Assembly: GCF_013344475.1 (NCBI RefSeq)
Contig: NZ_JABUOU010000001.1
Location: 434,001 to 498,000, forward strand
Source of the DNA: Martelella limonii
GTDB taxonomy: Bacteria > Pseudomonadota > Alphaproteobacteria > Rhizobiales > Rhizobiaceae
Length of the DNA: 64,000 nucleotides
Direction of reading: 5' to 3'
The position numbers and the translations under genes were made by a program. Under the pieces are notes generated by a model. The model worked only from the letters and a program-made list of their open reading frames with translations, searched no databases and was not told the DNA's origin. Below, in pieces: positions 37,219 to 42,684 of this stretch. Every line of letters begins with the position of its first letter. The stretch's first letter is position 1.

Positions 37219-37311
37219 TTCGGAAAAGCCTGGTTCGCGCCCGGCCATACCTTGTATTACCGCCCCGCATGCTTCATGGATGCGCCGGTTCTTCCACAAG
37301 GAACCCGTTTC

Positions 37312-37388
37312 GGCCCCTTAGCTCAGCTGGATAGAGCACCGGCCTTCTAAGCCGACGGTCGCAGGTTCGAATCCTGCAGGGGTCGCCA
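37312..37388 (+). tRNA. tRNA-Arg (anticodon UCU)
   Basis: A 77-nt cloverleaf with encoded CCA. Acceptor GGCCCCT pairs with AGGGGTC, then G-CCA. The anticodon loop CTTCTAA gives anticodon TCT. The T-arm is GCAGG-TTCGAAT-CCTGC. This tRNA type is a frequent integration site of genomic islands, and it marks the left edge of the AT-rich insertion here. I found no repeat of its 3' end downstream within the window. Confidence 0.96.
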
Positions 37389-37735
37389 TTATTTTCAATG
37401 ACTTGACTTCATGTGTTTGCTGCATGCTGGACCAGTTTGAAAACTGGTTTGCAGGTTTTGTTTTGCTTGCGTTCTTTCGTCCCGCTCGCAGCCCACATAT
37501 CGGGATTGCGCAAGGCCGTATGCGCAGGCATTAGCTTCCCTCTCAACTTTCCCGTCGCCAAGACAACCGTCGCAGAGCGGCTCCGAAGCTGCCTTGCTCG
37601 GTAGAAATAGTCACGCCCTCTTCCGAACCCTTGAGGGGGCGATCGGGAAGGTTTCGAATAAAAGAAGCTCTGGAAAGGCTGATGACAGCGCGGCCCGGGC
37701 TTTTCTTTAGACCGGTCAACACATAGGCTGGTGTC
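37389..37735. other. Gap after tRNA-Arg
   Basis: This 347-base stretch carries a perfect inverted repeat ACCAGTTT-GA-AAACTGGT (37431-37448) shortly after the tRNA, possibly its terminator. No gene is convincing. The sequence composition shifts away from that of the flanking core genes. Confidence 0.45.
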
Positions 37736-38164
37736 ATGACAGACACCGACTTGAGTGCGCGACGGCGCGAGATCATCCGTCAATACTTCCGCTACGTCGA
37801 TACCGGAGACGCTCGTATCCTTGACCTTTACACGGACGATGTGGAGTTGCTGTTCCCGAAGTTTGGTCGAAAACGCGGCAAGGATGCGATGCGCACCTTT
37901 GGTGCGCGCATGTCGGCAATGCTGTGGAGACTGGAACATGACATCGAGGGATTGGCCTTTGTAGAGACCGGCAATACGATTGTCGTCGAGGGTCGGGAGT
38001 GGGGCGAAATGGCGGATGGCACGCCGTTTCCTGACGGCGAAATTTCTCAGGGCCTATTTTGCAACGTCTTCGAGTTCGACGGTGAGCTTATTCAGGCGGT
38101 TCGGATTTACGTGGACCCTGATTTCACCAGCAGGGATCAACCAAGGATCAGTGCTTTGCGCTGA
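37736..38164 (+). CDS. SnoaL-like (NTF2-fold) protein
   Basis: A 142-residue protein. The pattern IIRQYFRYVDTGDARILDLYTDDVELLFPKFGRKRGKD, with a long first helix then the acidic strand, fits the SnoaL/NTF2-like superfamily. The C-terminal strand has GELIQAVRIYVDPDF. The fold forms a pocket used by isomerases, dehydratases and scaffold proteins; no catalytic assignment is possible. It may be part of the accessory region after the tRNA, but its base composition is intermediate rather than AT-rich. Confidence 0.8.
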   Translation: MTDTDLSARRREIIRQYFRYVDTGDARILDLYTDDVELLFPKFGRKRGKDAMRTFGARMSAMLWRLEHDIEGLAFVETGNTIVVEGREWGEMADGTPFPDGEISQGLFCNVFEFDGELIQAVRIYVDPDFTSRDQPRISALR

Positions 38165-38586
38165 TCTTCGGGTATCGTTCCCATTTCCCAATCGTCTTTG
38201 GAAAAGGCCGCTGCGATTGCCAATCGTTACCCGACGGCCAACTTGACCCGATAGCGGACCGGAAGCTTTGCGTCCCATTTCGGTCGTTCCCCGGTTCTCT
38301 GTCTTGGCCTGAAAGCAAGCCGTATGCGAAGGTCTATAGAGGGCAGAGATCCGCCGCTCGCTGCGTCCGGACGAACGGCAGCGATGCGCAATAGCTCTTC
38401 AGGCATGTGTAGAAGTAGCACACAATACATCCGGGACGGATCGGAAATAGCCGCCGCGTGAAGTCTCACGAAACGCGAACATCGAATAAGTCCACAATTC
38501 GCTCATGGTCGCCAAATGCCCCCCCCCCCGACTTCCTTCTCGAGAAGGATCACTCTTCCTGCATCAACCGCAATTTAAATCCTATA
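38165..38586. other. Gene-poor stretch with 11-base poly-C tract
   Basis: No gene can be supported in these 422 bases. An uninterrupted run of 11 cytosines occupies 38519-38529, just beyond the 3' end of the reverse transcriptase gene. An ~80-codon frame on the minus strand (38227-38469) has no ribosome site and no recognisable domain. Confidence 0.5.
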
Positions 38587-40200
38587 TTAAAATCTAATAT
38601 CTTTAAATATCAGATCTAACCCTTTGTGACCATAATCCACGAAAGAAACCTTCTCTTTCTTCAAACAGTTGAAAACTTTTATGTCCTCCTGCGCTGCATA
38701 GGGGTTATCAATCTCGCCATCCAAAAACATTTGGTACAGAACAACCCAGTACTGATCTAAGTCGTACTCAACGATCTGTCTGGCGGTAAGTTTTTCCTTC
38801 AATCTGTTTGCCCACTCTTTGAAGGCCCGAGTGTCAGCGCCATGAGTCTTCGTGTAAACGTAGGACATTAGTATAACCAATGGAGAATTCTCAGCTAGAG
38901 ACTTCTCTATAATATCTTTTCTAAAGGCGGGGTCCGTTCGAATTAGGAGGAAAATGCACCATGTCACATTGTCGCTATGTCCGGACTTGAATGACCTGTC
39001 AAGAATTGATAGTATTCTATCTTTTGCCTCTATCTTGACGGAGTATCTCTCAATCCATCGGTATATAAGCGGAACTAGGGATGGGTAATAGAATGAATAT
39101 CTAAGCAAAGAGTCTTCGACGTACTTTTCAGCGTCAAGCTCACTAAAGCCCATTTCTAGAATAGATGAGAAGGCATATTTCGCAACACTTCCGTCGGGGT
39201 TCTCATCGCTCAGAATGATGGCCTTTTCAATAATTAGCCTCACATCCTTGTAGCTAAGCCCATCTTTTTTCACATCTTTGTGACGGTCAGCAAGTGCGAG
39301 AACCTGATTCATTTCAACAACCCATCTCTGGGAGGTCGGCACGGGCATTTCTCGTACGTCAGTTTTCCTGGCATTGAGGTGAAGGGAGTAGTCCTCCAGC
39401 TTCCTTGATAACTCAAACAAGAAGCTATCGGCTTGGTCTCGGTCCTTTGCGAAGCATGTGTAATCGTCTATATATCTATAGAAATTGTACCCCTTGTTGC
39501 GGAGATGCTCGTCGATGGGAAAGAGAACTAATTCGCTCAGGATACTCGATGTGGCAGGTCCAATTGAAATACCCTTTGTCTCGTTTCTCTGACTTATACG
39601 CGCTGCACGGTCCAAATTATTGTACCAGCGGTCAGATCCTCTATTTCTCTTTGACTCCTCAGCGCCAACAAGAGCCCACGAGAGAGAATGCGTATAAATG
39701 CTTTTAAAGAAATTTGTAATGTCTGTTTTAACTCTGTACATGGAACCAAAATCTACGCTTGGATCAGTGCTTTCCGCGTCGTTGTTTATGTAGATTGATC
39801 CATACGAGTGAACTATAATTCTATAGTCGCTTTGAATCTCAAAATTAAGTATTGAGTTTGGGCTTTGACATCTTTTGGATATTTTTCCATCCCAGTTCTT
39901 TACTATCTCTTCAACCAAGTCGACGTGTGCCTTGGGGTGCGGAATACTTAGAGACCTCGGGATTCCAGGGTGTCGTGTTCTCTTGAAATGAACCGCATCA
40001 AACCCGGATTCTCTTCTGAACTTGCTTAACCCAAATTCGTTCAGCTTCGCTCCCACTTCGGGCGTCAACATCTCACTACCGAATATTGGCGGTAGCTCCT
40101 CTCTTTTTTCATGTGTGAACGGGAAGTAGTTGAACTGAAGCAGGCTTTTTCGGATGTTTTCCGCAGTTAGCTCTAGCGGCTCTTGATCTTCGGACTTCAT
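38587..40200 (-). CDS. Reverse transcriptase, UG/Abi/DRT-type candidate defence protein
   Basis: A 537-residue RNA-directed DNA polymerase. RT motif A is VKTDITNFFKSIYTH (Asp160), motif B is KGISIGPATSSIL, motif C is YRYIDDYTCF (YIDD at 243-246) and the thumb-side motif D-like region is LHLNARKTDV. The C-terminal ~240 residues are helical, HEAT-like in appearance, with no endonuclease, maturase or integrase motif. The segment RSLSIPHP before motif A is typical of the UG class linked to phage defence. The start at 40200 follows GAGGAAG; the stop of an upstream 119-aa gene overlaps it by four bases. The gene is markedly AT-rich, pointing to recent transfer. Subgroup cannot be fixed without a profile search. 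Confidence 0.88.
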   Translation of the reverse strand: MKSEDQEPLELTAENIRKSLLQFNYFPFTHEKREELPPIFGSEMLTPEVGAKLNEFGLSKFRRESGFDAVHFKRTRHPGIPRSLSIPHPKAHVDLVEEIVKNWDGKISKRCQSPNSILNFEIQSDYRIIVHSYGSIYINNDAESTDPSVDFGSMYRVKTDITNFFKSIYTHSLSWALVGAEESKRNRGSDRWYNNLDRAARISQRNETKGISIGPATSSILSELVLFPIDEHLRNKGYNFYRYIDDYTCFAKDRDQADSFLFELSRKLEDYSLHLNARKTDVREMPVPTSQRWVVEMNQVLALADRHKDVKKDGLSYKDVRLIIEKAIILSDENPDGSVAKYAFSSILEMGFSELDAEKYVEDSLLRYSFYYPSLVPLIYRWIERYSVKIEAKDRILSILDRSFKSGHSDNVTWCIFLLIRTDPAFRKDIIEKSLAENSPLVILMSYVYTKTHGADTRAFKEWANRLKEKLTARQIVEYDLDQYWVVLYQMFLDGEIDNPYAAQEDIKVFNCLKKEKVSFVDYGHKGLDLIFKDIRF

Positions 40201-40556
40201 TTGCAGACTTCCTCGTTTCCATAGTTTTGCGATACCTCTGCAAGCCATATCTGAAACGGTAGGGGATTCCTAAAATTGGTGTCAACGCCTCTCTCTAAGG
40301 GAGGAGTGACGACGACAATTTGGTCGAGCGCAGCGAAGAACGGCTTTCTGCAGTTGGTGTCATCCGGCGTCTTGCGCAAGTTGTCCCGGAAGGCCTCTGT
40401 CCGGTTATCCTCTGCGCCTGGCACGAAGGTCGGCTCAGGGCCGAAATCGACTATACGCCTCTCAAGCCCGAACGTCCGCTTCGCTAATTGGTGAGACCAG
40501 ACCTGCCATTCTGCATACGGCCCCAATTCCGCCTGCCAGCGTTCCATTTTTGCCAA
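40197..40556 (-). CDS. 119-residue protein of unknown function, coupled to the reverse transcriptase
   Basis: The start is TTG 40556, preceded by GGGAGAAGG; an internal ATG (40547) is possible. The stop overlaps the reverse transcriptase start (ATGA), strongly suggesting one operon. The sequence has a charged, Trp-rich N-terminal helix (MERWQAELGPYAEWQVWSHQ), basic RTFGLERR, and a later hydrophobic strand (DQIVVVTPP). I recognise no domain. The frame stays open ~110 bases upstream with protein-like composition (including AVFREKALELAK) but has no ATG, so it might be a truncated longer gene. It is less AT-rich than the reverse transcriptase. Confidence 0.6.
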   Translation of the reverse strand: MAKMERWQAELGPYAEWQVWSHQLAKRTFGLERRIVDFGPEPTFVPGAEDNRTEAFRDNLRKTPDDTNCRKPFFAALDQIVVVTPPLERGVDTNFRNPLPFQIWLAEVSQNYGNEEVCK

Positions 40557-40983
40557 TTCAAGCGCCTTCTCCCTGAAAACTGCCGATCCTTGCAGGTTGC
40601 TACAGTGTCTATCACGGGAAGGGTTGGCGGGTATTTGGGTTAGTTCTTGACTGCCCGTCGGGGTTGGTGATCAAGCGGCATGCATTTTGGGCTATACCGC
40701 GAGCGGAAACCGCGCTTGTCGCTTGACCGTGCAACTGCCGATGTTCTGCCGGTCGTCGAGGGGATCTCGTTCGTTCTGGTTGCAAGAGGGCTCGGTCCTG
40801 ATTTTCGGCGGGCATAGTCTGTCCTGGACGGATGGATCTGCTCCTCCGTGCCCATGGAGCCTGTCATGTGGAGGCGTCTCTGGTCGGGCGCTGCTCTGGA
40901 AATCCGGCATCGGCAACGCCACTTAGGTGGAGAATGGTCGAGCGCCTGCGGCCGAGCGATACGAAGGAAGCGATACGGAAAAC
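40557..40983. other. Right flank of the RT island, upstream of selO
   Basis: These 427 bases hold the upstream region of the RT operon (minus strand) and of selO (plus). Several frames of 40-70 codons exist, for example one starting with M-H-F-G-L-Y-R-E-R at 40680, without a ribosome site or known domain. They may be gene relics. Confidence 0.4.
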
Positions 40984-42459
40984 ATGACGGTACATTTCGA
41001 CTTCGACAACAGCTACGCCCGTCTCGGTACCGCCTTCCACCGGCCGACCGTGCCATCGCCCGTCGCCGCGCCGCATCTCCTGAAGGTGAACCGGAGACTG
41101 GCCGATGCGCTCGGGCTCGACGCGGATGCGTTGGGCACTGCTGAAGGGGTTGGCATCCTGGCCGGCAACCGGCTTCCGGCAGGGGCAGAGCCGATCGCGG
41201 CCGCTTACGCCGGACATCAATTCGGAAACTTCGTGCCGCAACTCGGCGATGGGCGCGCCATCCTTCTCGGTGAGGTCGTCGACCGAGAGGGCCTGCGTCG
41301 CGACGTCCAGCTGAAGGGGGCGGGCCCGACCCTATTCTCGCGCAATGGCGACGGGCGGGCAGCGCTCGGCCCGGTCCTGCGCGAGTATCTCGTAAGCGAG
41401 GCCATGGCCGCGCTCAAAATTCCGACCACGCGGGCGCTGGCCGCGGTCGCGACGGGAGAACCGGTCTACCGGGAAACGGCCCTGCCGGGCGCGGTCCTGA
41501 CCCGTGTCGCCTCCAGCCATATACGCGTCGGCACGTTCCAGTTCTTCGCGGCACGGGGCGACGACGCCGCGGTTCGAAAACTCGCCGACCATGTGATTGA
41601 CAGGCATTATCCCGAGGCCGCGGGCGCTTCCAATCCCTACCGCGCTTTTCTCGAAGGCGTCTGCGCGCGCCAGGCGGAGCTTGTCGCGCGCTGGATGCAG
41701 ATCGGCTTCGTGCACGGCGTCATGAACACCGACAATATGTCGGTTTCCGGGGAAACGATCGACTACGGCCCGTGCGCCTTCCTCGACGCCTACGATCCCG
41801 CGACCGTCTTCTCCTCGATCGATCGCAACGGGCGGTACGCCTATGCCAACCAGGCCCGCATCGCGAACTGGAACCTCGCACGTCTGGCAGAATGTCTGCT
41901 TCCCCATCTCGATCCGGAGGAAAACAAGGCCATTGAAGCCGCACAGGAGGTCCTCTCCGGATTTGCGGAGACGTTCAACGCGGCCTATGTCGACGGCTTT
42001 CGCGCGAAGATCGGCTTGCAGACACCGCAGACGGAAGATGCCGCGTTGATCGAGGATCTTCTTCTGCGCATGGCGCAGCACAATGCGGACTTTACCTTGA
42101 CCTTTCGCAATCTCGGCAAAGCGGCGGAGAGCGCGCAGGCCGATGGGCCGATCCGCGGTCTCTTTGCCGATCCAGCAGCCTACGACGGCTGGGCGGCGCG
42201 CTGGCGCCAGCGCCTCGCGGCCGAACCGAGAGAGCCGGGTGAACGGCGCGCTGCGATGGATGCGGTGAACCCCGCGATCATTCCGCGCAATCATCTCGTC
42301 GAGGAAGCGCTTGCCGCCGCGATGGCCGGCGACCTGGCACCCTTCGAACGCCTGAACGAAGCGCTCGCCGCGCCCTTCGAGGATCGGGCGGAGTTCGCCG
42401 ATTATGCCGGCCTTCCGCCGGTGCCCGAGGCGGCCTACCGGACCTTCTGCGGCACCTAA
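40984..42459 (+). CDS. selO: Protein adenylyltransferase SelO (YdiU family)
   Basis: A pseudokinase-fold enzyme that transfers AMP from ATP to Ser/Thr/Tyr of proteins, linked to redox homeostasis. It has 491 residues, family length. Signatures are [18 protein letters not shown], the ATP-binding [42 protein letters not shown] (catalytic-loop Asp/Asn and metal Asp) and the C-terminal YRTFCGT. Many bacterial SelO proteins end near a conserved Cys replacing selenocysteine, as here. I chose ATG 40984 over a 19-codon longer start. Confidence 0.95.
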
Positions 42460-42684
42460 AGGCGGAGCGTTTTCTCGCCTGAGCTTGCTGCGCGTGGTCG
42501 TCCCGATCGACAGCGCATCGGCAGGCGGGATGAGCGCAGACATGCTATCTGGGACTGAAACGATCGAACGGCTGCGTAAAGGTCGGGCTTGTCCTTGATC
42601 GCTGTCGCTCAATCGGTTTGTTTGCCCGCCAACACAGATAAGCCTAGTGTTGCAGACATGCAGCGAAACAGCTGGAGCCAGAAC

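Follow-up and report, generated by a model that had tools for sequence, protein, structure and literature searches.

The 64,000-nt stretch of Martelella limonii DNA analysed here (the window) contains on its reverse strand, at 38587–40200 with the stop codon included, a gene (drt4) for a 537-AA reverse transcriptase (RT). Very probably, this RT forms a single-gene anti-phage system of the DRT4 (UG15) type that was acquired horizontally, and the 119-AA open frame overlapping its start is fortuitous. Observed in the sequences are the family membership of the RT with its near-full-length match to solved DRT4, its intact catalytic residues, its patchy occurrence among kin, the low G+C content of its gene (43.3% vs. 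61.4% for the whole window) and the lack of any conserved partner in the searches made.

Family assignment of the reverse transcriptase

The RT frame starts with the ATG at 40200 (reverse strand) and continues to 38587, encoding the 537-AA product with the YIDD motif that had been recognized in a preliminary description of this DNA. The protein scored 585.7 bits against the NCBIfam Drt4 equivalog model NF041749, the cut-off of which is 450, and its residues 15–520 were aligned with profile positions 2–489 of 489. PADLOC ranked Drt4 first (549 bits), followed by Drt6 (286), AbiK (137) and AbiP2 (106), and DRT6 was rejected as the family of the RT on the difference between the first two scores. 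The phmmer search aligned residues 16–520 with the chains of solved UG15/DRT4 structures (PDB 9vdo, 9l9s, 21ou, 9ltm) at an E-value of about 1e-73, and the identity to solved DRT4 is about 32%. Judged by its sequence, the RT is thus a divergent member of the DRT4 (UG15) family of already described anti-virus enzymes. The earlier suggestion of an RT of the UG/Abi/DRT type was correct in its outline, but the statement that no named DRT type fits has to be replaced by Drt4, assigned with a curated cut-off.

A structure model of the RT was built from six sequences and is of middling confidence (mean pLDDT of 62). It predicts helices in the C-terminal part from residue 291 on, in agreement with the helical C-terminus proposed previously. 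In a Foldseek comparison of the model with the PDB, UG15 and DRT4 gave the best matches, followed by DRT6, AbiK and Abi-P2. Yet, the superposition on the DRT4 entries was poor (TM-score 0.35–0.39, rmsd about 26 Å), and the sequence match is therefore the stronger evidence for DRT4.

The YIDD catalytic motif (Y243-I244-D245-D246) is encoded at 39463–39474 of the reverse strand. Residues D160, D245 and D246, together with Y169, Y247, Y342 and Y489, are invariant across seven aligned DRT4/DRT6 proteins. The catalytic pair had been pointed out before as D244/D245; the pair stands, but counted from the ATG at 40200 the numbering becomes D245/D246. D160 is probably the motif-A aspartate. When seven proteins classified as Drt4 by PADLOC were compared, the invariant tyrosines were Y133, Y169, Y247 and Y489; the P0001 row of this comparison was read with its alignment gaps, and the residue numbers match those of the DRT4/DRT6 alignment.

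The 119-AA frame and the repeat beneath it

The small frame, which we judge to be spurious, extends on the reverse strand from a TTG at 40556 to 40197 and shares the ATGA with the start of the RT gene; its end in TGA and the overlap arise because the RT begins with ATGA. By eye, a purine-rich stretch is seen before the TTG. The G+C content of the frame (54.4%) is nearer to that of the DNA upstream (58.6%) than to that of the RT gene. Counted from stop to stop, the region is open for 157 codons. Of 5000 dinucleotide shuffles of 40200–40926, 110 have an open run of 119 or more codons up to this point and 33 one of 156 or more; when any of the three frames is allowed, 335 reach 119. The length is therefore uncommon, but not beyond chance. 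The 119-AA product is without a match in NCBIfam, PADLOC and the PDB up to an E-value of 1 and in PHROGs up to 0.01, and its only two matches in Pfam were both under the cut-off (E 0.14 and 0.2). Protein-level searches of a class sample gave a match in one of its 384 other genomes, at an E-value of 0.0097 and interrupted by a stop, and a further match lies on a plasmid, where no gene is listed and the frame has two stops; a short-pattern search of viral contigs returned none. The last two thirds of the frame gave no match to anything searched, so for this part the judgement that it is spurious comes from the absence of relatives and not from the repeat described below. Most likely, the 119-AA frame crosses non-coding DNA and is open by chance. 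The position of the frame and its ATGA overlap had been described correctly, but it matches no known gene.

The preliminary description had proposed a two-component system of the RT and the 119-AA protein, to be examined by looking for the small gene beside orthologues of the RT. Results of this comparison came out against such coupling: tblastn with the stop-to-stop frame gave a hit at none of 42 loci with related RTs at an E-value of 1e-3, the best E-value being 0.89. These loci comprise eight with Drt4 by PADLOC (L013, L038, L083 via the same gene on L080, L088–L091 and the first piece of L014), three that are DRT6-like (L084–L086, assigned through L002, L081 and L082) and 31 outside the PADLOC scan. 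The upstream side is visible at seven of the eight Drt4 loci, as L091 starts at the locus edge; L090 is cut and L014 has a broken frame. The locus thus looks like the single-gene DRT4, with no relative of the small frame at the 42 loci and only a tRNA among Rfam families. The DRT4 genes at L038 and L083 also overlap the gene upstream by four bases; at L038 this gene encodes a 704-AA protein, at L083 a type I specificity subunit (assigned on L080, where the same gene is cut shorter). As these overlaps are with other genes, the ATGA overlap does not mark the 119-AA frame as a partner. A false lead is thereby removed: four shared bases do not by themselves make a short domainless frame a partner gene. 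This DRT4 may nevertheless have a young partner or an undescribed non-coding RNA.

Some neighbours of the related RTs were recorded in their own right. On the Pseudoalteromonas piscicida plasmid NZ_CP074588.1 (L038:1845–3959, forward strand) the 704-AA protein is encoded before a strong Drt4 (751 bits). Nothing was found for it in PADLOC at E-values up to 1e-10, in NCBIfam up to 5 or in the PDB up to 0.1, and Pfam gave only a weak match to HSDR_N (E 0.043). Its N-terminus, viewed by eye, presumably resembles a GHKL-type ATPase. The protein may be a true partner of DRT4, or its gene may serve defence separately. In genome G454 (L083/L080) the DRT4 gene lies directly behind that of the type I restriction specificity subunit, with the four-base overlap, and in G042 (L084:5776–6786, forward strand) a DRT6-like RT is located 66 bases behind an AbiH gene.

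Under the first third of the small frame lies a repeat, with about 60–120 bp aligned (40403–40541, reverse strand), for which 11 further places with 78–91% identity were found in eight of 12 congeners; a second copy was not found in the own genome. Three of these places (two in G004, one in G002) have no locus and were left out of the frame comparison, and the ten copies examined were the eight remaining congener copies (L062, L065, L066, L067, L069, L072, L073 and L074), L040 and the plasmid copy L037. The frame is open in seven copies and interrupted by stops or an indel in three, and the open frames at the ten copies vary from 21 to 170 AA with ends that are not shared. No RT was seen in the stretches examined around them (best E 0.87). 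Substitutions were counted in the nine ungapped copies and the window, leaving out L067 with its one gap. Counted once per site and base, the distinct changes occupy 46 of 223 non-synonymous, 19 of 71 synonymous and four of 12 stop-making possibilities, which gives no clear sign of coding constraint. Differences pooled by codon position show a third-position excess, both against the window (27/34/55) and over all copy pairs (161/173/264), the pairs not being independent. The excess shrinks when only variable columns are counted (18/17/22 of 34 each) or each distinct change once (20/22/27).

In a family sample of about one genome per genus the repeat was detected in one of 120 other genomes, a congener, so that outside the genus it is known from plasmids only. 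The plasmids that match it belong to other Alphaproteobacteria. With the window's copy as the query one plasmid record matched, and with the congener copy L062 seven did. Six of the seven are without a listed gene, which says little given the gaps in the PLSDB gene tables, and one is in an unannotated record; six of the seven cover the 3′ part of L062 only (24–35% of the query). No copy was found by a repeat-pattern search of the viral contigs, and when folded as RNA the repeat does not exceed shuffles in stability (z 0.84). The repeat may be tied to known Rhizobium mosaic elements.

Surroundings and origin of the locus

The RT was previously placed in an AT-rich island beside a tRNA-Arg gene. 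The low G+C content of the RT gene is evident, but the extent and adjacency of such an island are not: some 1.2 kb separate the tRNA-Arg (37312–37388) from the RT stop, with a SnoaL-like gene (37736–38164) of 55.2% G+C in between, which leaves little but the RT gene as the AT-rich part. Within 37312–42464 the tRNA-Arg and selO are neighbours, with the RT and the SnoaL-like gene standing between them; in the nine congener stretches compared the two were not found together.

The NDUS4/tRNA-Arg region is matched in all 12 congeners, and in the six such loci compared the match stops at or before about 37478. In 11 of the 12 selO is present, and the nine congener selO stretches match the window over selO and up to 500 bases upstream, but not on the tRNA side; no RT was seen in them. 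In one congener, G006, about 0.37 Mb separate the tRNA region from selO. Its alignment with the window reaches to about 40421, a point within the small frame, and contains gaps that break the frame. G006 has no RT match over the Drt4 cut-off, its only match to this model being one of 19.5 bits at another place. The segment 40421–40926 (no strand assigned), which is alignable with the DNA upstream of selO in G006, therefore appears to be the ancestral upstream region of selO, its left end lying approximately at the presumed right edge of the RT-bearing segment. It would seem that the AT-rich RT gene is located where a rearrangement joined two regions and that the small frame spans this junction, running from the old selO upstream region across the repeat into the 5′ region of the RT gene.

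A promoter scan of 38400–40950 yielded one promoter-like site, located within the RT gene (mean of 3.0 in shuffles), and none in the RT leader; by eye only, a TTGACA is seen near 40278–40283. In 37250–41000 there are no inverted repeats and no direct repeats flanking the RT, the direct repeats of this region being four short two-copy families. Of the Rfam families, only tRNA reached the gathering score in 37300–41000, and no retron RNA was found there at an E-value of 1.

Distribution, alternative readings and proposed mechanism

The Drt4 cut-off was passed in one of 61 genomes of relatives and in one of 398 genomes of the phylum, in both cases the own genome, which is part of either sample. 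The RT of G454 reached 419 bits, just under the NCBIfam cut-off of 450, yet is Drt4 by PADLOC, so the cut-off understates the spread of DRT4. Further DRT4 relatives were found in Thalassospira, a Janthinobacterium metagenome assembly, the Pseudoalteromonas plasmid and viral contigs. For the viral contigs, an alignment search found 35 RT loci, and single-protein searches found no relative. In the PADLOC scan, other complete DRT4 proteins had best Drt4 scores of 608–753 vs. 549 for the window RT.

That the 119-AA protein is a lineage-specific partner (an activator, inhibitor or antitoxin) translationally coupled to the RT appears quite improbable to us. The ATGA overlap, the 157-codon open frame, the pooled third-position excess and the presence of a single repeat copy in the own genome would all suit such a protein, but it has no relative at the 42 related RT loci and none over threshold in five libraries, the repeat that makes up its first third has copies elsewhere without an RT, the distinct changes reveal no clear coding constraint, and its G+C content is unlike that of the RT. 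Lower still do we rate the chance that the repeat was recruited with the RT leader to form a 119-AA frame whose translation, through coupling, sets that of the RT; if true, this would be a young, lineage-specific two-component DRT4. It is also quite improbable that the RT is a protein of the DRT4 clade that no longer defends the cell or makes a different product (e.g., patterned instead of random ssDNA). The identity of about 32% to solved DRT4 and the PADLOC score under those of the other complete proteins are consistent with such a change, as is the variation in product among class 1 UG RTs described in excerpts of a preprint (PMC13174585). Against it stand the intact frame, the invariant catalytic residues and a score over the equivalog cut-off.

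A retron, group II intron or other mobile-element RT, which would share the general RT fold, is hardly conceivable here. The RT is far under the cut-offs of the retron model St85 (42 vs. 235 bits) and of the maturase-type group II model (47.1 vs. 300 bits), and neither an msr-msd-type RNA nor repeats flanking the RT were found in the regions scanned. Both candidates were rejected, as the preliminary description had anticipated.

For the RT as a single-gene DRT4, a mode of action can be transferred by homology. Excerpts of two reviews (PMC13213688, PMC13314766) and of a preprint (PMC13174585) describe DRT4 as a single-gene hexameric polymerase that is primed on tyrosine and makes random ssDNA without a template. 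We infer that the window RT would likewise form a hexamer, prime on its own tyrosine and then add nucleotides without a template. On infection, the 3′ end of the ssDNA would be shielded from exonucleases by a DNA-binding protein of the phage (in the published case, ORF55); the ssDNA would build up, growth would stop and the spread of the phage would be aborted.

Among known systems, AbiK and Abi-P2 have in common with the window RT a polymerase followed by a helical domain, and excerpts of PMC13174585 and PMC11077055 report untemplated, protein-primed synthesis for AbiK; the window RT, however, scored 137 bits (AbiK) and 106 bits (AbiP2) vs. 549 for Drt4. DRT6 (PDB 9wy8) is a related RT with a fold match ranked below UG15/DRT4, but the Drt6 score of the window RT is about half its Drt4 score, and the DRT6-like relatives L002, L081 and L082 are only 22–23% identical to it. 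With DRT4/UG15 itself the RT shares near-full-length homology, the catalytic motif, the predicted helical C-terminus, a score over the curated cut-off and the lack of a conserved partner. It differs from the solved members, to which it is about 32% identical, in its first 15 residues, which are outside the match, and in its host. One divergent DRT4 is thus added to a family that occurs patchily in the samples of 61 relatives and 398 phylum genomes.
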